Part shown: one piece after another, positions 549-11,421 of the stretch | Numbering within the stretch: position 1 is the stretch's first letter | How the letters are laid out: each line of letters starts with the position of its first letter | Source of the DNA: Accumulibacter sp. | GTDB lineage: Bacteria; Pseudomonadota; Gammaproteobacteria; Burkholderiales; Rhodocyclaceae | Length of the DNA: 11,421 nucleotides | NCBI GenBank assembly: GCA_031274075.1 | Contig: JAISQQ010000037.1 | Location: forward strand, 1 to 11,421 | Direction: 5' to 3' | Translations under genes and position numbers: made by a program | Notes under the pieces: generated by a model | Databases searched by the model: none | What the model saw: only the letters and a program-made list of their open reading frames with translations | What the model was told of the DNA's origin: nothing

Positions 549-2054
549 TCAATCATCGCCCTGGAAGGCTTCCTCGCGCTTCCTGGTCAGCGCGGGTAGG
601 CTGGCGACGACGACCGCTAGCACGCCGATCGCCAGCAGGGTGGCGCTGATCGGGCGCTGCAGGAAGACCATCGGATCGCCGCGCGAGAGCAGCAGGGCGC
701 GGCGCATGTATTCTTCCATCAAGGGGCCGAGAATGAAGGCCAGCAGCATCGGCGCCGGTTCGCAGTCCAGCTTGACGAAGACGTAGCCCAGCACGCCGAA
801 GATGGCCATCAGGAAAACGTCGAACTCGGTGTTGTTCAGGCTGAACACGCCGATGCAGCAGAACACCAGGATCGCGGGGAAGAGAAGTTGGTACGGCACG
901 CTGACCAGCCTCACCCACATGCCGATCATCGGCAGGTTGAGCACGATCAGGAACAGGTTGCCGATCCACATCGAGACGATGATTCCCCAAAAGAGCGCCG
1001 GCTGTTCGGTGATCACCGACGGTCCGGGCTGGATGCCCTGGATGATCATCGCGCCGATCATCAGCGCCATCACCGGATTGGCCGGGATGCCGAGCGTCAG
1101 CATCGGGATGAACGAGGTTTGCGCGCCGGCGTTGTTCGCCGATTCGGGAGCCGCCACGCCCTCGATCGCGCCGTGGCCGAATTCGGCCGAGTTCTTGGAG
1201 ACTTTCTTTTCGATCGCGTAGGCCGCGAACGAGCCGAGGATCGAACCGCTGCCCGGAAGGATTCCCAGGAAGGAGCCGATGGCCGTGCCGCGGGCGATCG
1301 GGCCGAGCATGCGCTTCCAGTCCTCGCGCGAAGGCATCAGCTTGGTGATCTTGCCGATGGTCACCGAGCGGGCTTCCTCGTTTTCGAGGTTGCGCACCAC
1401 CTCGGCAATCCCGAACATGCCCATGGCGACCACCACGAAGCCGATGCCGTCGGCGAGCCGCGGGTTGTCGAAGGTGAAGCGCTGCGCGCCGGTATTCACG
1501 TCGGAGCCGATCATCCCGAGCAGCAGGCCGAGAACGATCATCCCGAAGGCGTGCAGCAGCGATCCGCGGGCGAGGACCATCGACGCCAGCAGGCCCAGCA
1601 CCATCAGGGAAAAGAATTCGGCGGGTCCGAATTTCAGCGCCAGCGCCGCCATCGGCGGGGCGAACAGCGCCAGCAGCACGGTGGCTACCGTGCCGGCGAT
1701 GAACGAACCGATCGCCGACGTCGCCAGCGCCACGCCGGCGCGGCCCCGGCGAGCCATCTGGTAACCGTCGAGCGCGGTCACCACCGAGGCCGCCTCGCCG
1801 GGCAGGTTGACCAGGATCGAAGTGGTCGAGCCGCCGTACTGGGAACCGTAGTAGATGCCGGCCAGCATGATCAGCGCCGAGACCGAAGGCAGGCCGAAGG
1901 TGATCGGCAGCAGCATGGCGATGGTCGCCGTCGGCCCCAGGCCGGGCAGCACGCCGACCATCGTGCCCAAAAAAACGCCGATCAGGCAGTACAGCAGGTT
2001 GAGCGGCGACGCCGCCGTGGCCAGCCCGATGCCGAGATTGGTGATCAGATCCAT
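549..2054 (-). CDS. tctA: TctA-family large membrane subunit of a tripartite tricarboxylate transporter
   Basis: This is the large permease subunit (501 aa, the usual family length) of a secondary importer that works with a periplasmic binding protein (TctC) and a small membrane subunit (TctB). It is hydrophobic throughout, with roughly 10-12 likely membrane segments. The two family half-motifs are visible: GVLPGLGPTATIAMLLP at 34-50 and GILPGSG at 264-270. They are followed by conserved stretches YGGSTTSILVNLPGE (73-87) and GAIEGVAAPESANNA (295-309). The ATG at 2054 has a GGAGGAGG Shine-Dalgarno sequence five bases upstream. It is the last gene of tctC-tctB-tctA and lies 24 bases after tctB. 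The carboxylate transported cannot be read from the sequence. No obvious intrinsic terminator follows. Confidence 0.95.
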   Translation of the reverse strand: MDLITNLGIGLATAASPLNLLYCLIGVFLGTMVGVLPGLGPTATIAMLLPITFGLPSVSALIMLAGIYYGSQYGGSTTSILVNLPGEAASVVTALDGYQMARRGRAGVALATSAIGSFIAGTVATVLLALFAPPMAALALKFGPAEFFSLMVLGLLASMVLARGSLLHAFGMIVLGLLLGMIGSDVNTGAQRFTFDNPRLADGIGFVVVAMGMFGIAEVVRNLENEEARSVTIGKITKLMPSREDWKRMLGPIARGTAIGSFLGILPGSGSILGSFAAYAIEKKVSKNSAEFGHGAIEGVAAPESANNAGAQTSFIPMLTLGIPANPVMALMIGAMIIQGIQPGPSVITEQPALFWGIIVSMWIGNLFLIVLNLPMIGMWVRLVSVPYQLLFPAILVFCCIGVFSLNNTEFDVFLMAIFGVLGYVFVKLDCEPAPMLLAFILGPLMEEYMRRALLLSRGDPMVFLQRPISATLLAIGVLAVVVASLPALTRKREEAFQGDD

Positions 2055-2078
2055 ATTTCCTCCTCCGTCAAGCGCCGG

Positions 2079-2540
2079 TCACAGCCCGAACCACGGCCCG
2101 AAGACCGGCAGCGGGATGCCAAGCCCCTTCAGGAACACCAGCACGCAGAAAACGGTGATGCCCACGGCCATGAGCGCCGTGCTTTTCCAGCGGAATTTGA
2201 CGCTGGCGCGGGAACTGACGAAGACCAGCGCGACCAGCGCCACCGCCAGGCCCGCGCCACGCGCGAGCACGCCGAACAGGACGATGGACAGGATGACCAG
2301 CACCATTCCGCGGATGGCCAGGCGGTCTATCGGCGCCCCGGCGCGGAGGAAGGAGCGCAGCAGCGAGACGACGCCGACGCCGACCAGCAGGACGCTCAGG
2401 ATAGTTGGAAAATAGGCCGGTCCCATTTCTCCGGCCCGGCCCATTTCGAGCTCCCGGCCCAGATAAAGCGCCGCCGACCCAATGGCGATATAGATGATCC
2501 CAACCCAGAATTCCTTGGGATTGCGAACGAAACGCTCCAA
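2079..2540 (-). CDS. tctB: TctB-family small membrane subunit of a tripartite tricarboxylate transporter
   Basis: A small integral membrane protein of 153 aa with about four hydrophobic segments (roughly 11-28, 44-64, 77-109, 121-139). GPAYFP at 40-45 matches the conserved GP-aromatic-P motif of TctB. I start it at a TTG codon at 2540, because AAGGAG lies six bases upstream and the family normally begins near the MERFVRNPKEFWVG segment. The frame is open 26 codons further to an ATG at 2618, but that extension is polar, Arg/Pro/Gly-rich and has no good ribosome binding site. The role of TctB is poorly understood; it is required with TctA for transport in characterised systems. It sits 129 bases after tctC and 24 before tctA. 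Confidence 0.9.
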   Translation of the reverse strand: MERFVRNPKEFWVGIIYIAIGSAALYLGRELEMGRAGEMGPAYFPTILSVLLVGVGVVSLLRSFLRAGAPIDRLAIRGMVLVILSIVLFGVLARGAGLAVALVALVFVSSRASVKFRWKSTALMAVGITVFCVLVFLKGLGIPLPVFGPWFGL

Positions 2541-2589
2541 GGCTCTCTCCTTGTCGCTAAGCAACGAAACCGCCGCCCCGCCTGGAGGA

Positions 2590-2661
2590 CGGGAGCGGCG
2601 CGTCCCGGTATCGAACACGCGAATTCCCGGCCGCCCCGGAAAAAACGGAGCCTTGGCCGGG
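2590..2661 (-). other. Inverted repeats in the tctC-tctB gap
   Basis: The 129-base gap (2541-2669) holds two inverted repeats. CCCGGCC (2626-2632) pairs with GGCCGGG (2655-2661) over a 22-base loop that contains a run of six T residues on the minus strand. CGGGA (2590-2594) pairs with TCCCG (2603-2607). Structures at this position between a binding-protein gene and its permease genes can protect the upstream mRNA and raise binding-protein levels; that role is inferred here. It is not a classical terminator, because the T-run lies inside the loop. Confidence 0.4.
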
Positions 2662-2669
2662 AGGAAACA

Positions 2670-3644
2670 TCAGTTGACGGTCACTCCGGCCTTCTTGATG
2701 ATCGGACCCCAGCGGTCGATTTCCGATTTCAGATGCGCGGCCAGCGCTTCGGGCGTCGCTCTTTCCTGCGGCACCGCTTCCGCGCCGAGGTCGGCGTAGC
2801 GCTGCATCAGGTTGGCGTCCTTCAACGCGGTCTGCAGCGCCTTGACCAAGGTTTCGATAACCGGCTTCGGCGTGCCCTTGGGCGCGTACAGCGCGTGCCA
2901 GGTGGACATCGAGAAGCCCGGCAGACCCGCTTCATCCGCCGTCGGCACGTCGGGCATCGAGCCGAGCCGTTTCGTCAGCGTCACGGCATAGACCTTGATC
3001 TTCCCGCCCTTGATGTGCGGCGTGGTGTTGGTCGACTGGTCGCACATGATGTCCACCGTTCCGCCCAGCATGTCGTTCATCGCCGGGCCGGTGCCCTTGT
3101 ACGGGATCAGCGTGACCTTGGTCTGGAGGGCTTCCTGGAACAGCAGGTCGCAGAGGTGCGAAGACGAACCGACCCCGGCGTTGGCCATGTTGACCTTGTC
3201 CTTGTTGGTCTTGACGTATTCCAGGAACTCCTTGAAATCCTTGAAGACCAGGTCGTTGCGGGAAACGAAGGTCGAAGCGCCGTCGTTGATGATGCCGATC
3301 GGCTCGAAATCGGCGATCGGATCGTAAGTCAGCTTGCTGTAGAGCGCCGGCGCGGTCGAATGGCCGATGTGATGCACGAACAGCGTATAGCCGTCCGGGT
3401 CGGACTTGGCCGCCCGCGCCGCGCCGATCGTTCCCCCGGCGCCGCCGACGTTTTCGATGATGATCTGCTGCTTGAGCGAGGCGCTCATGGTCTGGGCGAG
3501 AATACGGGCAATCGTATCCGACGGCCCCCCCGCGGCAAACGGCACAATCATGGTGATGACTTTTTCAGGATACTGAGCCCCCGCCGCCGAGGCTCCGAAA
3601 GCCACAAGAATACACACGATCGATTTGACAATTCTGCGCAACAT
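2670..3644 (-). CDS. tctC: TctC/Bug-family periplasmic substrate-binding protein
   Basis: A 324-aa extracytoplasmic solute receptor that captures a carboxylate-type substrate and delivers it to TctBA. The N-terminus is a classical Sec signal peptide: basic MLRRIVK, a hydrophobic core, and a probable cleavage site after AGA at residue 23, giving a mature start QYPEKVITMIVPFAAGG. The family segment PFAAGGPSDTIAR (35-47) and a later NVGGAGGTIGAARAAKSDPDGYTL stretch are typical of Bug proteins, which are strongly expanded in Burkholderiales. The start is the ATG at 3644, with AGGAGG six bases upstream. An in-frame TTG two codons earlier abuts the Shine-Dalgarno sequence and is rejected. It is first in the operon, after a hairpin-rich 318-base gap. 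The ligand cannot be deduced. Confidence 0.95.
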   Translation of the reverse strand: MLRRIVKSIVCILVAFGASAAGAQYPEKVITMIVPFAAGGPSDTIARILAQTMSASLKQQIIIENVGGAGGTIGAARAAKSDPDGYTLFVHHIGHSTAPALYSKLTYDPIADFEPIGIINDGASTFVSRNDLVFKDFKEFLEYVKTNKDKVNMANAGVGSSSHLCDLLFQEALQTKVTLIPYKGTGPAMNDMLGGTVDIMCDQSTNTTPHIKGGKIKVYAVTLTKRLGSMPDVPTADEAGLPGFSMSTWHALYAPKGTPKPVIETLVKALQTALKDANLMQRYADLGAEAVPQERATPEALAAHLKSEIDRWGPIIKKAGVTVN

Positions 3645-3695
3645 ACCCAACCTCCTGTAGAAATGAAAAGGGGTGTTCCCTCGACGCCTTTCGAT

Positions 3696-3726
3696 GTTTC
3701 AATCCACGTCCGGCAGGCCGGACGAA
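3696..3726 (-). repeat. Solitary unit resembling a type I-C CRISPR repeat
   Basis: On the minus strand a stem CGTCCGG-CCTG-CCGGACG (3724-3707) is followed directly by TGGATTGAAAC, so that GTGGATTGAAAC spans 3707-3696 plus the stem-closing G. Type I-C repeats have the same layout: a short GC stem-loop and then GTGGATTGAAAC as the crRNA handle. No second copy lies one repeat-plus-spacer length away on either side and no cas gene is present, so this is not an array. It may be a relic or a coincidence in a hairpin-rich leader. Confidence 0.35.
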
Positions 3727-3852
3727 AGCACGGAAGAGCTTACGCCCCTCCCGTGCAAGATTATCCCCCTGAAGGGGGAGGTTTCCAACCGGCGTCGGTT
3801 TTCGATGAATCCGTTCTTCCGACCCGTGCGAACCCGGCGTGGGTCCGCACGG
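3707..3852 (-). promoter_or_regulatory. Hairpin cluster in the tctC upstream region (candidate structured leader RNA)
   Basis: Five consecutive stem-loops lie between hisD and tctC. In minus-strand order they are: CCGTGCG with CGCACGG plus a G-U pair and ACCC/GGGT (3852-3824, 12 pairs, 5-base loop); AACCG/CGGTT (3800-3787); TCCCCC/GGGGGA (3779-3764, TTCA loop); GCACGG/CCGTGC enclosing six more pairs and a GUAA tetraloop (3756-3728, one bulged G); and CGTCCGG/CCGGACG (3724-3707). Three pairs are G-U in the minus-strand RNA but would be A-C mismatches in a plus-strand RNA, which favours a minus-strand transcript leading into tctC. No known riboswitch family was recognised. Confidence 0.45.
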
Positions 3853-3855
3853 CTC

Positions 3856-3884
3856 ATTACACACCCAATCGGGATTTTCCACAA
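3856..3884 (-). promoter_or_regulatory. Possible tctC operon promoter
   Basis: TTGTGG (3884-3879, 3 of 6 to the -35 consensus), 17 bases, then TGTAAT (3861-3856, 5 of 6 to the -10 consensus) on the minus strand. Transcription would begin near 3849, at the base of the first leader hairpin, giving an untranslated leader of about 205 bases before tctC. The -35 box is weak, so an activator or a different start is possible. Confidence 0.28.
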
Positions 3885-3926
3885 TCATGTCCGCATACCG
3901 ATGACCCGCTATCAGTGATTTTCTTG

Positions 3927-3943
3927 CGGGCGCAAAGCGCCCG
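3927..3943 (-). terminator. GC hairpin after hisD, weak terminator candidate
   Basis: CGGGCGC (3927-3933) and GCGCCCG (3937-3943) form a perfect 7 bp stem with a 3-base loop, about 20 bases after the hisD stop on the minus strand. The expected U-tract is absent (the following bases are CAAGAAAATC), so it may only be a 3' barrier or a pause site. Confidence 0.3.
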
Positions 3944-3950
3944 GTAATCG

Positions 3951-3983
3951 ATCCGATCCCTGTCATCCGATCCCTGATCCCTG
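3951..3983. repeat. Direct repeat ATCCGATCCCTG spanning the hisD stop
   Basis: ATCCGATCCCTG occurs at 3951-3962 and again at 3965-3976, with a partial third copy ATCCCTG at 3977-3983. The hisD stop codon (3965-3963) lies at the junction of the two full copies. The repeat therefore encodes the last residues of HisD (about QGSGIG) and continues into the untranslated DNA, suggesting slippage at the gene end. Confidence 0.6.
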
Positions 3984-5288
3984 AACGCGGTACTCGGCGG
4001 CCCGCGCGTGCGCGGACAATCCTTCGCCCGTGGCCAGGATCGACGCCACCTGCCCGAGCGTCCTGGCGGCTTGCCGGGAAACCCGGATCAGGCTGCTGCG
4101 CTTCTGGAAATCGTAAACTCCCAGCGGCGAGGAAAAACGCGCGCTGCCGGAGGTCGGCAGGACGTGGTTGGGACCCGCGCAATAGTCGCCCAGCGCTTCC
4201 GAGCTGTAGGGGCCGATGAAAATGGCGCCGGCATTATGGATGCGGTCGACCCAGCGTTCGGCGTCGGCGACCGACAATTCGAGGTGTTCGGGAGCGATGC
4301 GGTCGGCCACCGCGCAGGCCTCGTCGAGATCGCGCACGGTGATCAGCGCGCCGCGGTTCTCCAGGGCGCCGCGGATGATTTCCCGGCGCGGCATCGCCGG
4401 CAGCAGCCGGTTGATCGATTCGGCGACGCGCTCGATATAGGCGGCGTCGGGAGACAGCAGGATCGCCTGCGCCAGCTCGTCGTGCTCGGCCTGCGAAAAC
4501 AGGTCCATCGCCACCCAGTCGGGATCGGTGCCGCCGTCGCAGACGATCAGGATTTCGGAAGGGCCCGCGACCATATCGATTCCGACCACCCCGAAAACCT
4601 GGCGCTTGGCCGCGGCGACATAGGCGTTGCCGGGACCGACGATCTTGTCGACCTGGGGAATCGTTTGCGTGCCGTAGGCCAGGGCGCCGACCGCCTGCGC
4701 GCCGCCGACGCAGAACACGCGGTTTACGCCGGCGATCGCCGCCGCCGCCAAGACCAGCGGATTGCGCTCTCCGTCCGGCGTCGGCACGACCATGATCAAC
4801 TCGCCGACCCCGGCGACCCGCGCCGGAATGGCGTTCATCAACACCGAGGAAGGGTAGGCGGCCTTGCCGCCCGGAACGTACAGGCCGACCCGGTCGAGCG
4901 GCGTCACCTTCTGGCCGAGCACGGTTCCCGCCAGCGCGCCCTGCGTTTCCTCGTAGTGCCAGCTTTGCAGCGGCTGGCGTTGATGGTAGGCGCGGATACG
5001 CTGCGCCGCCGTCTCGAGCGCCGTCTTTTGGGATTCCGGCAAAGCCTCCAGCGCGCGCTCCAGCGCTTCGCGGGGCAGTTCGAGTTCGGCCAGCGAACCC
5101 GCGGACAGCCGGTCGAAACGACGGGTGTAGGCCAGCACCGCCGCGTCGCCCCGTTCGCGCACGTCGGCCAGGATGGCGGCCACGGCCTGGTCGATCGACG
5201 CGTCCCGCGTTCCGCCGAAAGCGCGCAAGGCCGCGAGCTTTTGCGCGAAATCCGCGTCGCTGCTGGAAAAGCGCCTGACGGCGATCAT
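3963..5288 (-). CDS. hisD: Histidinol dehydrogenase
   Basis: Oxidises L-histidinol to L-histidine in two NAD-dependent steps, the end of histidine biosynthesis; a zinc enzyme acting as a cytoplasmic dimer. At 441 aa it has normal length. Zinc ligands are present: Q266 and H269 in SQAEHD, D368 in [15 protein letters not shown], and H427 in LSAHARAA. The catalytic Glu-His pair lies in APEHLEL (E334, H335). The segment [17 protein letters not shown] (217-233) is also typical. The ATG at 5288 overlaps the hisG stop by four bases (ATGA), so translation is coupled. The frame stays open further upstream inside hisG, but nothing there belongs to HisD. The C-terminus (QGSGIG) is built from a short direct repeat. 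Unusually, hisC does not follow. Confidence 0.97.
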
Positions 5289-5929
5289 CGCCCCACCGCC
5301 CGCGCGATGGCGTCCATGATCGGCGCGAGCTTCTCGCGCTTCAACTTGAGCGCCGCCTGGTTGACGATCAGGCGCGCCGAGATGTCGACGATGTGCTCGA
5401 TGGCCACCAGCCTGTTGGCCTTCAGCGTGCCGCCGGTCGAAACCAGATCGACGATGGCGTCGGCCAGCCCGGCCAGCGGCGCCAGTTCCATCGATCCGTA
5501 GAGCTTGATCAGATCGACATGGACGCCCTTGGCCGCGAAATGCTCGCGAGCGATGTTGATGTATTTGGTCGCCACCCTGAGACGGGCGCCCTGGCGCACC
5601 GCGTGTCCGTAATCGAAGCCCGCCGGAACGGCGACCATCATCCGGCATTGGGCGATCTTCAGGTCGAGCGGCTGGTAAAGCCCGTCGCCGCCATTTTCGA
5701 TCAGCACGTCCTTACCCGCCACGCCAACGTCGGCCGCCCCGTACTGCACGTAGGTCGGCGCGTCGGTGGCGCGCACGATGACCACGCGCACGTCGTCGCG
5801 GTTGGTCGGAATGATCAGCTTGCGCGAGGTTTCCGGATTCTCCCGCGGCTCGATGCCGGCCGCCGTCAGCAACGGCAAGGTCTCTTCAAAGATTCTGCCC
5901 TTCGACAGGGCGATGGTGATGCCATCCAC
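5285..5929 (-). CDS. hisG: ATP phosphoribosyltransferase, short form
   Basis: Catalyses the first committed step of histidine synthesis, joining ATP and PRPP to give phosphoribosyl-ATP. At 214 aa it is the short form, which lacks the C-terminal histidine-binding domain and normally works with HisZ; no hisZ is visible here. The N-terminal [17 protein letters not shown] and the signature [16 protein letters not shown] (157-172, PRPP-binding region) are clear. I start it at GTG 5929, so the protein begins just before ITIALSKGR as in relatives, with a weak GGAAAG sequence six bases upstream. The frame is open 59 codons further (to 6106), but that extension has no family match that I recognise and no ribosome binding site. 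It overlaps hisD by ATGA and starts 200 bases after res. Confidence 0.93.
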
Positions 5930-5966
5930 GACATGCTTTCCGAGCAAAAGGAAGGATTCTATTCCG

Positions 5967-5995
5967 TTTATGAGTGCTTGGTGACGTGGAGACAA
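5967..5995 (-). promoter_or_regulatory. Possible hisG promoter
   Basis: On the minus strand TTGTCT (5995-5990, 4 of 6), 17 bases, then CATAAA (5972-5967, 4 of 6). Transcription would begin about 30 bases before the GTG start of hisG. Both boxes are mediocre. It matters because it supports the GTG start and would let hisGD be expressed independently of the restriction genes upstream. Confidence 0.3.
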
Positions 5996-6078
5996 ACCGT
6001 CCAGGGCGATCATGGCGCGAGCGCTTGCCGTTTGCTTTTTCCGCTGACGAGAGGGGGCAAGAGGGTTTTCAGCGCTTG

Positions 6079-6111
6079 TTGGGGCAGGCTTTGCCTGTTT
6101 CAGCACCCCAA
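6079..6111. other. Nested inverted repeat in the res-hisG gap
   Basis: TTGGGG (6079-6084) pairs with CCCCAA (6106-6111) and encloses a second stem, CAGGC (6085-6089) with GCCTG (6093-6097). It begins about 20 bases after the res stop. There is no U-tract, so a classical terminator is not supported. The rest of the 200-base gap (5930-6129) holds only the possible hisG promoter. Confidence 0.35.
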
Positions 6112-6129: not shown

Positions 6130-8859
6130 TCACGTCCGTTCCCCGGATTCAAAACGGAGGAAATCACTCAAGCGTTTCGACTCCTTGACTTCGTCATGCG
6201 GTACCAGCAGGTAGCGCCACGGCTTGCCGCCAACGGTTGCGGCGTATTCCGAGGCATATTCGCACCAGCGCGCGGCGGCGGCTGCCTTGGCCTTCACCTC
6301 GTCGGTTTTCAGGTCGTCCCGCTTTTTGGTTTCCGCCATGATGATCGTCGCATCGGTTTCCACCACGAAATCGGGGATGTATTCCGGCTGTCCGGCGCCC
6401 AGTTTGTAGTAAATCTGGAATTGTCCCTTCGCGGGCTTGAGCCATTTCAGGGCGTCGCGTTCAAGGATGACGGAAAAGCGGCGCTCCGAATCCGAATCAA
6501 ATTTCTGGAGCGGGTACAGGCACTTCCTGAAGCCGCCGAACAGCATCTGCCTGATGCGGCGCACATCCTCCACGGTTTCGCGGTAGTGGCGCGGAGCCTG
6601 TCCTGCCGTGACGGTGTAATGGCAGGGCTTGAGTTCCGTGAAGCCGCGACTGACCTGCACCTCGAATTCGCTCGCTTCTTCAAAAAAATGCGCCATCATT
6701 TGCGCGTGGATTTCTTTGGCAAGGGTCTTGCGTTGCCCGTCCAGAACATTGAGCGCATCGGCTTCCGAAAGGTAGCCGCGCAGGTGCCGCACCATCTGCC
6801 CGGCAAGGTCGTAGAGCAGATTGGCGTGGGTGAAGTAGTCAATGTCGTCGAAATCCACCAGGGCGTGGACGATGTAATCCTCCGGGCGTTGCTCCTTCAG
6901 GCCGATTTCGGCGGCCAGCGTGAACTGCTCGTTGGTGCGCAGCATCTGGCCGACGATTTCACGCTCGCCCGGTTGCAGGTGAAGCTGGCTCACGTCCAGC
7001 GTGAACGGATGAAAACCTGTCGTGACCTCACCTTTCGGCACCACGGCGATGCGCGGGATGTCGATGGTCTGTTGCACCACGATTTCGGTGGTCTTCGCCA
7101 CCACGGCGGACAGATCAAACGCCTGAGCCGATTCATCCACGCCCGCCAGCAGATTGCCCTGCATGGGCTGCAACCGTTCCGCAACTTCTGCCAGAATTTC
7201 TCTTTGCGCCTCTGGCTTCAAGAGCGCGCCACGGGTCGGCGTCAGATCGCGCCTGATCTCGTATTGGCCGATCACCTCCAGAACCACGCGCGCCGCCTGC
7301 TTTTCCGCTTCGGTCGTGAATACGGGTGTCGGCGCGGGCACGGCCTCACCGCCATTCGCGGCTGCCGACGCGGGGGCGACCGTCGGAGCGTCCGCAAGCC
7401 CAAGGCAAACCGCCGCGCCCGGCCCGACCTGCACGCTCTCTTTCCGGTCATCCGCGCCGGGCGTATCGAGAATGACCTGCTTTAAGCGAATCGGCGAATC
7501 GCCCCGGTTGGCCTCGTCGATGATCTCCTGAAACTTGTCGTGGGCGACAATGTTCAGCCGATCCACCGCCGCTACGCCCGTGCGTTTGCCGTAGGGCAGG
7601 CGCAGGCCGCGACCGATGCTCTGCTCGATCAGCGTTCGCGCGTTCGCCGCCCGCAAGGGCACGATGGTGTAGAGGTTGGTCACGTCCCAGCCTTCCTTCA
7701 GCATATTGACGTGAATCACGATCTCGGTCGGCTCGTCTACGCTCTCCACCGCCAGCAGGCGCGTAATCATTGCTTCCTCTTCCGCGCCGGTGCGGCTGGA
7801 ATCCACCTGAATCACCTTGCCCGCGTAGCGCCCCTCATAAAACGCTTCCGATTCCAGCAGCGCCAGCAATTGCCCGGCGTGCGTGGTATCGCGCGCAATG
7901 ACGAGCATGAAAGGCTTCACCGGCTTGACGCCGTTCTCGCGGGCGTAGGTGAGCAGTTCCACTTTCGTTATCTCGTGCAGGCGCGCGCCATCTTCCAGCT
8001 TGATTTTTTCCACTTCCTCCGGCGTATGCGCTTTGGCGTCGAAATTGCGCTGGGTGACCGCCGCCGGTTCCTTGACAAAGCCGTCCGCCATCGCCCGCGC
8101 CAGGGGGTAATCCATCACCACGTTCCTGAACGGCGTCGGCCCCTTGCCGGATTCCACAAACGGCGTTGCCGTCAGTTCCAGGCCGAACAACGGTTTCAAT
8201 TCATTGATCGCCCGCACTCCGGCGCTGGCGCGGTAGCGGTGCGATTCGTCCATCAGCAGCACGAGGTCGGGCAGATTCGCCAGATGGTTGAAGTAGCTGT
8301 CGCCCAGCACTTCTTTCATGCGCTTGATGCGCGGCTCCTTGCCGCCGCGCACTTCGGAATTGATTTTGGAGATGTTGAAGATGTTGACGCGAATCTCGTC
8401 CAGCAACGTTCCCCCGGTCATGTTCTGCTGGTCGTAGTTATCTCCGGTAATCACGCGCGGCGGATTCAGGGCGAATTCGCCGATGCCCTTGAACACATAT
8501 TTGGGCGTATTGGGGGTGAAGTCCGCAATCAGCTTGTTATAGATGGTAAGATTGGGCGCGAGCACGAAGAAATTGTTGAGTCCATGCGCCAGATGCAAAT
8601 AGGCAATGAAAGCCCCCATCAGGCGCGTTTTGCCCACGCCGGTGGCAAGCGCGAAGCAGAGCGAAGGAAAGTCACGCTCAAAATCCGCCAGCGTCGGGAA
8701 CTCGGCTTTCAACGTGGAAAGAATGGCGGCAACATCGCGCTCATGCCCCAGCATTTCCGGCGCGGCATCCAGCGCCTGCTTCAAACGGGCAAGTGATTCC
8801 GCCTGCGGCGGGCGCAGGGAAAGACGACCCGTGACGTGGTTTTGCGCGCGGGCGTTCAT
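6130..8859 (-). CDS. res: Type III restriction enzyme Res subunit (helicase plus PD-(D/E)XK nuclease)
   Basis: The restriction subunit of a type III-like system: an ATP-driven superfamily 2 motor that acts with Mod and cleaves DNA lacking proper methylation. All core motifs are visible: Walker A ATGVGKTR (72-79), DESH (204-207), TAT (230-232), a motif V-like NMLKEGWDVTN (385-395) and motif VI QSIGRGLR (413-420). Near the C-terminus PD at 829-830 and E843-T-K845 form a complete PD-x12-ExK nuclease site, so the enzyme looks catalytically intact. At 909 aa it is within the family range. The ATG at 8859 overlaps the rhuM stop by four bases, with GGGAG eight bases upstream. The segment around 470-520 is rich in Ala/Pro/Val and looks like a linker. 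It is the last gene of the restriction cluster. Confidence 0.93.
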   Translation of the reverse strand: MNARAQNHVTGRLSLRPPQAESLARLKQALDAAPEMLGHERDVAAILSTLKAEFPTLADFERDFPSLCFALATGVGKTRLMGAFIAYLHLAHGLNNFFVLAPNLTIYNKLIADFTPNTPKYVFKGIGEFALNPPRVITGDNYDQQNMTGGTLLDEIRVNIFNISKINSEVRGGKEPRIKRMKEVLGDSYFNHLANLPDLVLLMDESHRYRASAGVRAINELKPLFGLELTATPFVESGKGPTPFRNVVMDYPLARAMADGFVKEPAAVTQRNFDAKAHTPEEVEKIKLEDGARLHEITKVELLTYARENGVKPVKPFMLVIARDTTHAGQLLALLESEAFYEGRYAGKVIQVDSSRTGAEEEAMITRLLAVESVDEPTEIVIHVNMLKEGWDVTNLYTIVPLRAANARTLIEQSIGRGLRLPYGKRTGVAAVDRLNIVAHDKFQEIIDEANRGDSPIRLKQVILDTPGADDRKESVQVGPGAAVCLGLADAPTVAPASAAANGGEAVPAPTPVFTTEAEKQAARVVLEVIGQYEIRRDLTPTRGALLKPEAQREILAEVAERLQPMQGNLLAGVDESAQAFDLSAVVAKTTEIVVQQTIDIPRIAVVPKGEVTTGFHPFTLDVSQLHLQPGEREIVGQMLRTNEQFTLAAEIGLKEQRPEDYIVHALVDFDDIDYFTHANLLYDLAGQMVRHLRGYLSEADALNVLDGQRKTLAKEIHAQMMAHFFEEASEFEVQVSRGFTELKPCHYTVTAGQAPRHYRETVEDVRRIRQMLFGGFRKCLYPLQKFDSDSERRFSVILERDALKWLKPAKGQFQIYYKLGAGQPEYIPDFVVETDATIIMAETKKRDDLKTDEVKAKAAAAARWCEYASEYAATVGGKPWRYLLVPHDEVKESKRLSDFLRFESGERT

Positions 8860-9923
8860 GGTTTTTCTCCCTTTTCCTTCTTGCCGCTGCCTGCCGGACG
8901 CTCGCCTTCAAGCCGCTTTACCACGCGGTCGAAATCGCTCTCAAACAACCTGTCCTGCACGATGCGATATTTCTCGAATTCGCTTTCAGCGTGGGCGCGG
9001 GCGATTTCCGCCGTCACTTTGCCCGCATCCTGCAATATTTCGCGGTCTGTCGCGGCAAGAAAACGATTCAGGCGCGTTTCCCAATCCTGCATGGTCATTG
9101 GAATCTTGCGCAGCGCCATGTCTTCGGCCACGTCCAGATAGGCGGATACCAGCCGGGTGAGCTGCGCCATTTCGTACTCGTTCAGGTAGTTCTTGGCAAC
9201 GGTCACGTCGAACTTCTGGATTTTTCCTTGCGGCGCATCCTGCCAGGTGGTCAGCCCCATGTTTTCCCTGTCAGCATCGGCGCGGTGATAGACGACTTCC
9301 GCCGCCGTCTGGCCGTGAATGGCCCAGTGCAGCTTGTTCTGCACTGTGGCGAAAAAGCGTTTGGTGGCCTGTGCCGTTACATCGTAGTCAATGGCGGTAG
9401 CGTAGATATCGGTGATTTTCTGGTAGAACTTGCGTTCGGACAGGCGTATTTCGCGGACGCGCTGAAGTTGTTCCTCAAAGTATTTTTCCGTCAGAATGGA
9501 GCCGCCGCTTTTCAGGCGCTCGTCATCCATCGCATAACCCTTGATGGTGAATTCCTCGACGATGGTCGTCGCCCATTTGCGGAACTGCACCGCGCGCTCA
9601 GAGTTGACCTTGTAGCCCACCGCAATGATGGCGGCCAGGTTGTAATGCCTGGTGTCATAGCTTTTGCCGTCGGCGGCAGTTATTCGAAAATTTCGAATAA
9701 CTGCTTCTTCCTGTAATTCGCTGTCCGAAAAAACCTTTTTCAGGTGGTAATTGATGGTGTGCGTTTCCACGTCGTAGAGAACACCCATCATCTTCTGGGT
9801 GAGCCAGACGTTTTCATCGGCGTACACCGCCTCCACACCTCCCGCGCCGCTGGCGGCCACAAAGGTCAGATATTCCGCCGCCGAGGAACGGACAAGGGAG
9901 ACTGCCTGCTTTTTCTTCGTCAT
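8856..9923 (-). CDS. rhuM: RhuM-family protein
   Basis: A 355-aa member of the RhuM (virulence protein RhuM) family, named from a Salmonella pathogenicity island gene; its biochemical function is not established. The recognisable core is VWLTQKMMGVLYDVETHTIN (39-58), which could be a helix-turn-helix-like segment, then FRITAADGKSYDTRHYNLAAI (79-99), VGYKVNSERAVQFRKWAT and KGYAMDDERLK. The C-terminal part is helical and charged, ending in a Lys/Glu tail. RhuM genes are often seen inside restriction loci, between methylase and restriction genes, so a defence accessory or regulatory role is likely by context only. Start ATG 9923 overlaps the nuclease gene stop by ATGA, and its own stop overlaps the res start by ATGA. 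A perfect 29-base palindrome lies in codons 74-83. Confidence 0.92.
   Translation of the reverse strand: MTKKKQAVSLVRSSAAEYLTFVAASGAGGVEAVYADENVWLTQKMMGVLYDVETHTINYHLKKVFSDSELQEEAVIRNFRITAADGKSYDTRHYNLAAIIAVGYKVNSERAVQFRKWATTIVEEFTIKGYAMDDERLKSGGSILTEKYFEEQLQRVREIRLSERKFYQKITDIYATAIDYDVTAQATKRFFATVQNKLHWAIHGQTAAEVVYHRADADRENMGLTTWQDAPQGKIQKFDVTVAKNYLNEYEMAQLTRLVSAYLDVAEDMALRKIPMTMQDWETRLNRFLAATDREILQDAGKVTAEIARAHAESEFEKYRIVQDRLFESDFDRVVKRLEGERPAGSGKKEKGEKP
9676..9704. repeat. Perfect 29-base odd palindrome inside rhuM
   Basis: GCAGTTATTCGAAA at 9676-9689 is the exact reverse complement of 9691-9704, with a single central A at 9690. It covers rhuM codons 74-83 (AVIRNFRITA) and so must also code. 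It is more AT-rich than its surroundings. It could be a protein-binding site, an mRNA hairpin or a remnant of an inserted element. Confidence 0.9.
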
Positions 9924-10963
9924 GGCGTATGTTTCTCCTTTTCGTCCTCCATTGCTCCCAACTCGCGCTCCAATTCCTCCACTGTGGGCAGACTGGTAAC
10001 AAACGGCTCCGGCAAGGCGCGTACCAATTCATATTCCGCTACGCCAATCGGCTTGTCGATGCCCGACAACGCATATTCGGCGACCAAGCGGTTTTTGGTT
10101 TTACACAACAATAAACCGATGGTGGGTTTGTCATCGGAAGATTTCACCTGTCGATCTACGGCGGCGAGGTAAAAATTTAACTGCCCGGCGTGTTCGGGTT
10201 TGAACGCGGTGGCTTTCAACTCTACGACGACATAGCATTTGAGCCGCGTGTGATAGAAAAGCAAGTCGATGAAAAACTCGTCGCCATTGACTTCCAGGCG
10301 GAACTGACGGCCTACATACGCAAAGCCTGCGCCCAACTCCAACAGAAAGCGTGTAATGTGCCGCACCAGCGCGTTTTCGATTTCACGCTCGTGCGCATCG
10401 TCACCCAGACCGAGAAAGTCAAACAGGTATGGGTCTTTCAGCGTTTCATGCGCCAGTTGCGAATGGGAAGTGGGCAGGCGATCCTTGAAATTGCTCACTG
10501 CCTTTCCTTGTCGCTCATGTTGTCGGTTACGGATATTCAGTTCCAGCGTGGCTCGCGACCAGCCCTCTGTGGCGGCTCTTTGGGCATACCATTTGCGTGC
10601 GTGATCGTCCTTCAGGCGTGTGATCAGGACGACGTTGTGAAACCAAGGCAATTGTCCAGCAAGCTGCTGGACAATTTGCTCATCCCGCCAGACTTCCGCA
10701 AAGGCTCGCATGTAAAGCAGGTTGGTGCGGGAAAACCCTTTCATGTCTGGAAAAGTTTCGCGCAAATCACGCGCCAGCCGTTCGATGACTTTGCTACCCC
10801 AGTCCTGCCGCGCTTGCCGCTCCAGAATGTCGCGGCCAATCTGCCAATACAGCTTTACCAATTCGCTATTGACCGCCAGCGCAGCGCGGCTGCGAGCCGC
10901 TACCACGCGCCGCTTGATGTCGGTCAGCCAGTTGGCATAATCGGCGGGAAGCGTCTCACGCAT
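9920..10963 (-). CDS. DUF1016/YhcG-family PD-(D/E)XK nuclease
   Basis: A 347-aa predicted nuclease. The N-terminal half is the DUF1016 helical domain, with LVKLYWQIGRDILERQ (35-50), GFSRTNLLYMRAFAE (76-90) and LPWFHNVVLITRLKD (105-119). The C-terminal half is the nuclease domain, with D233 in EFFIDLLFY, E248 and K250 in VVVELKA, and Q261 in GQLNFYL, so the active site looks intact. Target and partner are unknown; the family often sits in defence and restriction loci. I prefer the ATG at 10963, because AAGGAG lies six bases upstream; it starts 14 bases after the mod stop. A GTG at 10981 would overlap that stop by four bases but has a weaker ribosome binding site. Its stop overlaps the rhuM start by ATGA. 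Confidence 0.92.
   Translation of the reverse strand: MRETLPADYANWLTDIKRRVVAARSRAALAVNSELVKLYWQIGRDILERQARQDWGSKVIERLARDLRETFPDMKGFSRTNLLYMRAFAEVWRDEQIVQQLAGQLPWFHNVVLITRLKDDHARKWYAQRAATEGWSRATLELNIRNRQHERQGKAVSNFKDRLPTSHSQLAHETLKDPYLFDFLGLGDDAHEREIENALVRHITRFLLELGAGFAYVGRQFRLEVNGDEFFIDLLFYHTRLKCYVVVELKATAFKPEHAGQLNFYLAAVDRQVKSSDDKPTIGLLLCKTKNRLVAEYALSGIDKPIGVAEYELVRALPEPFVTSLPTVEELERELGAMEDEKEKHTP
10650..10676. repeat. Inverted repeat inside the DUF1016 nuclease gene
   Basis: AATTGTCCAGCA (10650-10661) is the exact reverse complement of TGCTGGACAATT (10665-10676), with the three central bases AGC unpaired. It covers codons of about residues 97-105 (IVQQLAGQL). The repeat Gln/Leu codons contribute to the symmetry, so coding constraint may explain part of it. 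Confidence 0.85.
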
Positions 10964-10977
10964 CGCGGTCTCCTTGC

Positions 10978-11421
10978 TCACGTATTCTCTCTTTTCCCAT
11001 CGTCAAACAATTCCCCCGTTTGCGTGTCCCTTTTATTCTTTCTACCGGGTTGTACAGGCTCGGGCGCAGCCAGCGGCAGATTCGCCACATTGAGGCTGTA
11101 ATCATCGTGCCCCCATTCGCAGCGGGCCAGCACCATTTTGGGAATCTTTTTCAAGGTCAGATTCGGCCAGCGTTCAGACGCTTGCGCGGCAGTCACGCCC
11201 CGGAAGGCCGCGCAGCACACCAGCAGGCTTTGTTCGGTTCCCACTTCCTCGGACAGCGCCTGCAACTGATCGGCGGAAAGATTCTGCGTGGTGACGTAGA
11301 GAAAATCGCGCTCGCTGGAATGGCCGTGTTGCCACCAGCGGGTTTCCGAAGGCGCGTAGGTAAAACCCTCCAGCTTCGCCAGCGCCTCGGCCAGTTGCGC
11401 GGCGTTGTATTCCGGGTTGAT
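10978..11421 (-). CDS. mod: Type III-like site-specific DNA methyltransferase, C-terminal part
   Basis: The frame is open from the right edge to a TGA at 10980-10978, giving 147 residues; the start and the catalytic motifs lie outside the window. The visible part reads INPEYNAAQLAEALAKLEGF, then YAPSETRWWQHGHSSERDFLYVTT, LLVCCAAFRG, LTLKKIPKMVLARCEWGHDDYSLN. This matches the C-terminal region I know from adenine-specific methyltransferases paired with type III Res subunits. The last 30 residues (PEPVQPGRKNKRDTQTGELFDD) are polar and probably disordered. Mod would supply DNA recognition and protective methylation for the complex. It is the most upstream gene seen in the restriction cluster, whose promoter must lie beyond the window. 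No internal start is needed: a TTG at 11265 is not a real start. Confidence 0.85.
   Translation of the reverse strand: MNPEYNAAQLAEALAKLEGFTYAPSETRWWQHGHSSERDFLYVTTQNLSADQLQALSEEVGTEQSLLVCCAAFRGVTAAQASERWPNLTLKKIPKMVLARCEWGHDDYSLNVANLPLAAPEPVQPGRKNKRDTQTGELFDDGKRENT

Follow-up and report, generated by a model that had tools for sequence, protein, structure and literature searches.

A variable mod-res slot in a type III-like restriction-modification operon, filled by a YhcG nuclease and RhuM in Accumulibacter sp.

Type III restriction-modification (RM) systems are characterized by methylation of one strand of an asymmetric site and by ATP-dependent cleavage between two such sites in inverted orientation. 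Members forming N4-methylcytosine (m4C) have been described; in some, seen in >500 genomes, mod is preceded on its 5′ side by an additional helicase gene of unknown role (Murray et al. 2021, PMC8259958). Defense genes embedded in type I loci were also described: PrrC in EcoprrI (PMC12707154), DarTG2 between hsdS and hsdR (PMC12255303), and TgvAB (PMC11411939). RhuM was proposed to be a toxin working with RM systems and PrrC, and RhuM-Doc fusions were noted (Biol Direct 2013, PMC3710099). In a survey of 2005, YhcG was found beside a type I locus only in Methanosarcina acetivorans (PMC1189080). Here we analyze an 11,421-nucleotide stretch of Accumulibacter sp. (contig JAISQQ010000037.1), called the window, in which genes for a DUF1016/YhcG nuclease and a RhuM protein are located between mod and res of a type III-like operon (Table 1). 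An original prediction made from the sequence alone had proposed four open reading frames (ORFs) on the same strand, with two accessory genes inside the operon; Pfam and PADLOC confirmed the positions and families.

The mod-res junction was compared between related loci. Set A contained the 80 genome loci with the closest Res proteins. Set B comprised the Res loci from those 21 genomes in a phylum sample of 398 that gave a match at E ≤ 1e-60, the genome of the window among them. After removal of the window's own loci, 100 loci (L numbers) were classified, 86 with a complete mod-res pair and 14 without a mod end in the locus. The rows include two duplicate pairs, L083/L096 (empty in both cases) and L080/L095 (both DUF1016, incomplete). 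Inserts other than RhuM and DUF1016 were identified by Pfam on representatives and, for the remaining ones, by phmmer (109 to 688 bits). Among the complete pairs, 36 junctions were empty, 46 carried assigned inserts of about ten kinds, and 4 had a gap without a called gene. The assigned inserts were RhuM (14), DUF1016 (10), Schlafen/AlbA_2 (6), zeta (5), Fic (3), Mnt-HepT (2), DUF4258 (2), and one each of DUF1016 plus RhuM (L023), truncated RhuM, PDDEXK_3, and a transposase-like ORF (L075), the last being our own reading of the sequence. The 14 loci without a mod end showed RhuM (5, among them L093 with a partial second copy), DUF1016 (2), DUF559 (2), DUF1016 plus RhuM (1; L014), or nothing assignable (4). 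According to the original prediction, type III systems typically consist of a mod-res pair, and it is type I loci that are better known for accessory genes of this kind. This did not describe the loci studied here, since 50 of the 86 junctions, and 11 of 17 in a second family (see below), were not empty or filled, although in the less selected set B 14 of 16 complete pairs were empty. Slot occupancy is thus concentrated in the nearer relatives of the window. We read the window as probably one filling of a variable slot, hereafter slot 2.

RhuM and DUF1016 keep to this position. In the 80 loci, the slots account for 33 matches to them, against 3 in flanking sequence totaling 1.05 Mb. As the inserts themselves count toward slot length, the comparison is between counts and does not test rates. 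One of the three flank matches (L083) is located in slot 1, the interval between an upstream SNF2 gene and mod (see below). When RhuM or DUF1016 inserts adjoin res, 28 of 34 overlap it by exactly 4 bases, and the others lie at −1, 3, 30, 88, 103, and 147 bases. In the 36 empty junctions, the mod-res distance was −4 in 15 and −1 in 14. The overlaps suggest coupled translation. Two loci of the same family have a tandem pair of mod genes ahead of res (L069, 6725-9983; L201, 6576-9940).

Slot contents were mapped onto a Res tree of 100 rows, 93 of them labeled, and changes were counted by a quick method. The 12 contents needed 44 changes (least possible, 11; shuffled mean, 51.9), a number reached by 1 of 200 shuffles, showing that the slot is often swapped and its content weakly inherited. 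The empty state was clustered (15 changes; shuffled mean, 28.9; 0 of 500 shuffles as low), and the combination of DUF1016 and RhuM, present in three rows, needed three changes. Close Res proteins can have unlike contents, as in L031 (RhuM) and L033 (DUF1016) or in L086 (RhuM) and L089 (Fic).

The original prediction regarded the four genes as a fixed composite system. The complete order mod-DUF1016-RhuM-res with 4-base overlaps was present in L023 (Nitrosomonas europaea ATCC 25978), and DUF1016-RhuM-res in L014, a metagenome-assembled genome of Zoogloeaceae in which mod lies off the contig. The order is therefore not unique to one strain, which would have spoken against the original prediction, but what recurs is the slot and not the quartet: only these two of 80 related loci contain the slot pair, its members occur separately in many loci, and the RhuM tree conflicts with the Res tree. 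In the 398-genome phylum sample, the window is the only case among the long RhuM and DUF1016 rows with both genes in this operon. When 399 genomes of the order were searched, a clear RhuM was found within about 1.5 kb of none of the other 15 close DUF1016 matches.

In trees of the slot proteins, the RhuM of the window was placed, with good support, beside those of L086 and L042, whose slots hold RhuM alone, and away from those of L023 and L014. The DUF1016 protein of the window was nearest to those of the DUF1016-only loci L019 and L033, at a poorly resolved fork. (As to row labels, L112 in the DUF1016 tree denotes the window, and L144 in the RhuM tree repeats the gene of L093; in the latter tree, the rows L121, L132, L133, L137, and L143, labeled as elsewhere, are type III loci of other families.) The Res proteins of L014 and L011 were among the nearest to the window Res, L011 being nearest by path. 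Since the RhuM tree separates the window from L014 while the Res tree places them close, slot partners have been exchanged. L011 may also carry a preceding DUF1016 gene, because its contig starts inside RhuM.

The slot is not restricted to one type III family. From the 398 phylum genomes, 75 long RhuM rows and 72 DUF1016 rows were kept, and 80 of 87 chosen genomes were searched for methylases; the neighbor counts are lower bounds from part of the listed rows. Within 6 kb of RhuM we found a type I-like N6_Mtase in at least 20 of 75 rows, a long N6_N4 methylase in at least 6, and a window-type Res in at least 3; for DUF1016 the numbers were at least 21, 1, and 3 of 72, respectively. RhuM and DUF1016 were neighbors at least four times, all with RM-type genes within 6 kb, namely in the window and in three places near N6_Mtase (type I-like by the methylase alone). 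RhuM was also present between mod and res with other types of Res, in L180 (992-amino-acid [aa] Res, RE_endonuc), L181, and L183 (long Mod and Res). In L181, a Doc-like gene (5292-5738) directly precedes RhuM in the slot, and L272 has a Doc-like gene in its slot as well (4860-5306). The L180 Res was searched in 239 genomes and found in 23. The mod end was available in 17 of the 23, including 5 that had first been noticed via RhuM. Eleven of the 17 junctions were filled and 4 were empty; the other two consisted of short gaps (183 and 289 bases) with no assigned content. The fillings were RhuM, Doc, Fic, NTase plus HEPN, Schlafen, Bro-N (L278, 3415-4296), and NTase with a DUF3368 protein. The L180 and window Res proteins share only 27% identity over 160 residues. 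Largely the same set of inserts is thus seen at the mod-res junction of a second, distant type III family.

An upstream SNF2 gene and a second slot characterize the relatives, features outside what the window sequence shows. Of 60 loci with 6 kb or more of sequence upstream of mod, 54 had SNF2 there on the same strand (45 of 49 in set A and 9 of 11 in set B, one locus being counted twice). It was also upstream of mod in all five annotated plasmids examined out of 23 records (Salmonella, Deinococcus, Aeromonas, Sphingopyxis, and Paracoccus). The distance between SNF2 and mod ranged from −93 to 7004 bases in 66 loci. This slot 1 contained AIPR/AbiU, a TrlF ATPase, IetAS, Septu PtuA, SIR2, an ATPase with a partner protein, RhuM, or a HATPase-like protein, in loci including L023, L048, L031, and L046. 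PtuA was accompanied by a PtuB-like HNH protein (57 bits, below the cut-off). In E. coli O104:H4, the order SNF2-AAA-S8 peptidase-mod-res corresponds to the IetAS arrangement. Slot 1 was empty in L183, L200, and L208 to L210, and SNF2, mod, and res were back to back in L200 and L208 to L210. A small helix-turn-helix (HTH) gene annotated as MAD1 precedes SNF2 in the E. coli copies L227 (4115-4315) and L228 (3980-4180). MADS was considered and rejected: the MAD1 HTH reached 81 bits (cut-off, 80), but no other MAD model passed among ten proteins (MAD3, 106 versus 420).

The window spans an entire contig (G000:C325) in an assembly of 474 contigs that is 88.7% complete, and it ends inside mod; therefore, only the last 147 Mod residues are visible. 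Searches of this assembly for the rest of mod yielded only distant homologs, and those for the window's own SNF2 gene, whose position would be off the contig, only distant homologs or weak matches. We attribute both results to the cut contig and the incomplete assembly, and an upstream SNF2 gene is to be expected from the relatives. The Mod fragment was 89% identical to the Mod of L017 (query 430-556), and the full-length Mod of L023 matched N6_N4_Mtase with 162 bits and MTase_III with 724 bits.

Table 1. Genes and gene junctions of the operon in the window.
Feature	Coordinates	Strand	Identification
mod, C-terminal 147 aa, open at contig end	10978..11421	-	type III-like DNA methyltransferase; PADLOC MTase_III 137 bits, model 449-559/575
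Slot gene 1, DUF1016/YhcG PD-(D/E)XK nuclease	9920..10981	-	Pfam DUF1016_N PF17761 and YhcG_C PF06250 (159 and 216 bits); PADLOC candidate PDC-S02, 537 bits
Slot gene 2, RhuM	8856..9923	-	PF13310 358 bits; PADLOC candidate PDC-S05, 507 bits
res, superfamily 2 (SF2) helicase with C-terminal PD-(D/E)XK nuclease motif	6130..8859	-	PADLOC REase_III 698 bits; Pfam ResIII 82 bits
GTGA overlap, mod stop/DUF1016 start	10978..10981	-	read from sequence
ATGA overlap, DUF1016 stop/RhuM start	9920..9923	-	read from sequence
ATGA overlap, RhuM stop/res start	8856..8859	-	read from sequence

PDC in the PADLOC names presumably stands for 'phage defence candidate'. The junctions agreed with the prediction when read directly: two are ATGA overlaps, and the third depends on the DUF1016 start, which is either GTG at 10981 (GTGA overlap) or ATG at 10963, 14 bases past the mod stop, with an AAGGAG ribosome-binding site 6 bases ahead. 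The predicted integrity of the active sites was likewise borne out by the motifs. Res contains GVGKT (Walker A) at 74, DESH at 204, and PD...ETK from 829, and thus has the helicase motifs and the C-terminal PD-(D/E)XK nuclease motif of a type III enzyme. The YhcG/DUF1016 protein has both family domains and the D...(E/D)xK site, D239...E254-L-K256. D239 and K256 were invariant across 37 DUF1016 proteins, and position 254 is E in the window and D in L063. The PF13310 score places RhuM far above the gathering cut-off of 33.7 bits. Downstream of res, hisG, hisD, and a tripartite tricarboxylate transporter set TctC/TctB/TctA follow (549-6106), with 23 bases between the end of res and the start of the longest hisG ORF. 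Elsewhere in the assembly, further N6_N4 methylase genes (frames of 564-582 aa) are located on G000:C340, two of them in tandem, and on C135, and a second, distant DUF1016 gene (35% identical) is located at G000:C200:3556-4548.

The predicted structure of RhuM comprises an N-terminal domain resembling a winged helix-turn-helix (wHTH)/Bro-N fold and a helical C-terminal domain. The Bro-N protein in the slot of L278 is consistent with this N-terminal model. In fold comparisons the model appeared to resemble DdrC of Deinococcus radiodurans in both halves. When the C-terminal half was used alone, Foldseek gave no match at E ≤ 0.001, DdrC chains ranked 9 and 20 (E 2.9 and 4.2), and DdrC came first only on re-alignment. 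No enzyme fold was recognized in the model. RhuM is thus predicted to bind DNA and is perhaps DdrC-like. In a sequence search of solved structures, the RhuM profile had no match and DUF1016 had two chance-level matches only; Res matched solved EcoP15I weakly. Carriage by phages was considered and rejected: Res had no match in phages at 1e-100, although PHROG models matched Res and DUF1016.

How could such an operon work? The core found in the relatives would consist of SNF2, mod, and res, with slot 1 taking larger modules or whole defense systems and slot 2 mostly small effectors. Mod would mark self DNA, and Res, with the SNF2 motor where present, would find and cut unmarked DNA. In our view, the YhcG nuclease and RhuM probably form an exchangeable second line of effectors, produced in concert with Res. 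YhcG may cut DNA, perhaps branched or broken intermediates, and RhuM may bind broken or foreign DNA via its wHTH and possibly DdrC-like body, blocking repair or replication. The backup or toxin-like role that had been predicted for the slot genes is plausible, and they may well act in defense.

The same slot could instead be a landing place for selfish or addiction modules that exploit the promoter of a hard-to-lose RM operon and have little defense value. The many inserts of toxin-antitoxin type (zeta, Mnt-HepT/HEPN, Fic/Doc, DUF4258 with DUF2283) would fit this, as would the fast turnover on the Res tree, the existence of broken copies (L043), and the DUF559 and transposase-like (L075) inserts. 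However, the 4-base overlap with res is kept by most RhuM and DUF1016 inserts, a distant type III family draws on the same repertoire, and slot 1 of the same operons holds systems from defense libraries (IetAS, Septu), making this explanation unlikely to us. Fast turnover also bears on the idea that the slot proteins are regulators or specificity factors, with RhuM controlling expression or steering the enzyme and YhcG adding cutting to the complex. The wHTH/Bro-N-like domain modeled for RhuM and the Bro-N protein in L278 would suit a regulator. A specificity factor had been among the predicted roles, but slot contents vary, even among close Res relatives, while Mod and Res stay constant, which argues against an obligatory subunit. 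Moreover, empty slots are common (36 of 86), and RhuM is also present in other settings: close to type I-like methylases, within slot 1, or by itself. We regard such a role as quite improbable.

Even less credence is given to a dedicated system of mod, YhcG, RhuM, and res whose parts work only together. It would explain the conserved order and overlaps in L023 and the DUF1016-RhuM-res order in L014, and the closeness of the L014 and L011 Res proteins to that of the window is in its favor, a slot pair being possible in L011. But the pair is confined to L023 and L014 among the 80 loci, RhuM alone fills 14 and DUF1016 alone 10 of the 86 junctions, and the window RhuM groups with RhuM-only loci despite the closeness of the L014 Res, the placement of DUF1016 being less resolved.

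Exchangeable second-line effectors in a standing slot would have consequences beyond this locus. Annotation of RM systems usually stops at two or three genes and passes over what lies beside them. Should the mod-res junction prove to be a permanent site for effectors, whatever it holds in coupling with res would belong to a ready catalog of defense candidates, and how constant recognition machinery joins changing effectors could be directly tested. RhuM, which is widespread and has no known activity in the literature covered, gains a context and a testable DNA-binding model. A more tentative proposal, which we would not yet bet on, is that type III operons of several families serve as a modular chassis for immunity. 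To an unchanging recognition core of Mod and Res, in some cases with SNF2, bacteria would add and exchange effectors that attack DNA, RNA, or protein, docking large modules at one position and small effectors at the other. The effector would be licensed when the core recognizes unmarked DNA or when that recognition fails, and RhuM would be the commonest small effector, DdrC-like and gripping broken ends made by Res. Embedding is already an accepted idea; 'guilt by embedding' is reportedly the subject of a preprint by Payne and colleagues from 2024. A two-slot, swapping type III chassis with a cross-family repertoire would be unfamiliar to most readers. We found no account of the mod-res slot in the literature searched, which did not include the Payne et al. 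2024 preprint.

Compared with the systems embedding PrrC, DarTG2, or TgvAB, the operon shares the presence of accessory genes inside an RM operon, serving there as a second line or complement. According to the accessible parts of those papers, however, the hosts are type I, whereas here the host is type III-like and has two slots with a large shared repertoire. As in PMC3710099, RhuM occurs in RM neighborhoods and beside Doc (here in L181), but the protein is modeled here as DNA-binding, perhaps DdrC-like, rather than as a protein-modifying enzyme. The DUF1016 protein has the DUF1016_N and YhcG_C domains and the catalytic residues of the YhcG/DUF1016 proteins of PMC1189080 (accessible text) and PDC-S02, here inside a type III slot.

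The SNF2 protein invites a comparison with DISARM, since DrmD was the best PADLOC model for the SNF2 of L200 (623 bits). SNF2 proteins of the relatives (L023, 663 bits; L227, 697 bits) remained below the NCBIfam DrmD_b cut-off of 950, which does not support DISARM class 1; DrmA, DrmB, and DrmC were not searched for. The methylase belongs to the MTase_III/N6_N4 class, in contrast to the m5C (5-methylcytosine) methylase HmaB, which accompanies the helicase HmaA and the ATPase HmaC in Hma (PMC8565338, available part). The minimal operons, with SNF2, mod, and res back to back, also differ from both DISARM and Hma.

The closest described system is the subgroup with Eco86II and BspHIV, the third group of PMC8259958, whose accessible part describes an SNF2/SF2 helicase, mod, and res in the same order as in the relatives of the window; the three-gene core is therefore already known. 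Accessory slots were not seen in that part of the paper. The Mod proteins differ in length (about 580 aa in the window family versus 1040 aa in the subgroup), and Res is also different. As a stand-in for Eco86II we used the SNF2-mod-res operon of E. coli F9792 (L229), which is most likely EcoF9792I, listed for this strain in the accessible text of PMC8259958. The Mod and Res proteins of L183 and of E. coli ET729 (L231) are relatives of those of this operon, the L229 and L183 Res proteins being 62% identical. The SNF2 of L023, in turn, was 43-45% identical to those of L183 and L231. Judged by these sequence relationships, the window family looks like a short-Mod relative of the Murray subgroup with which it shares the SNF2 protein.

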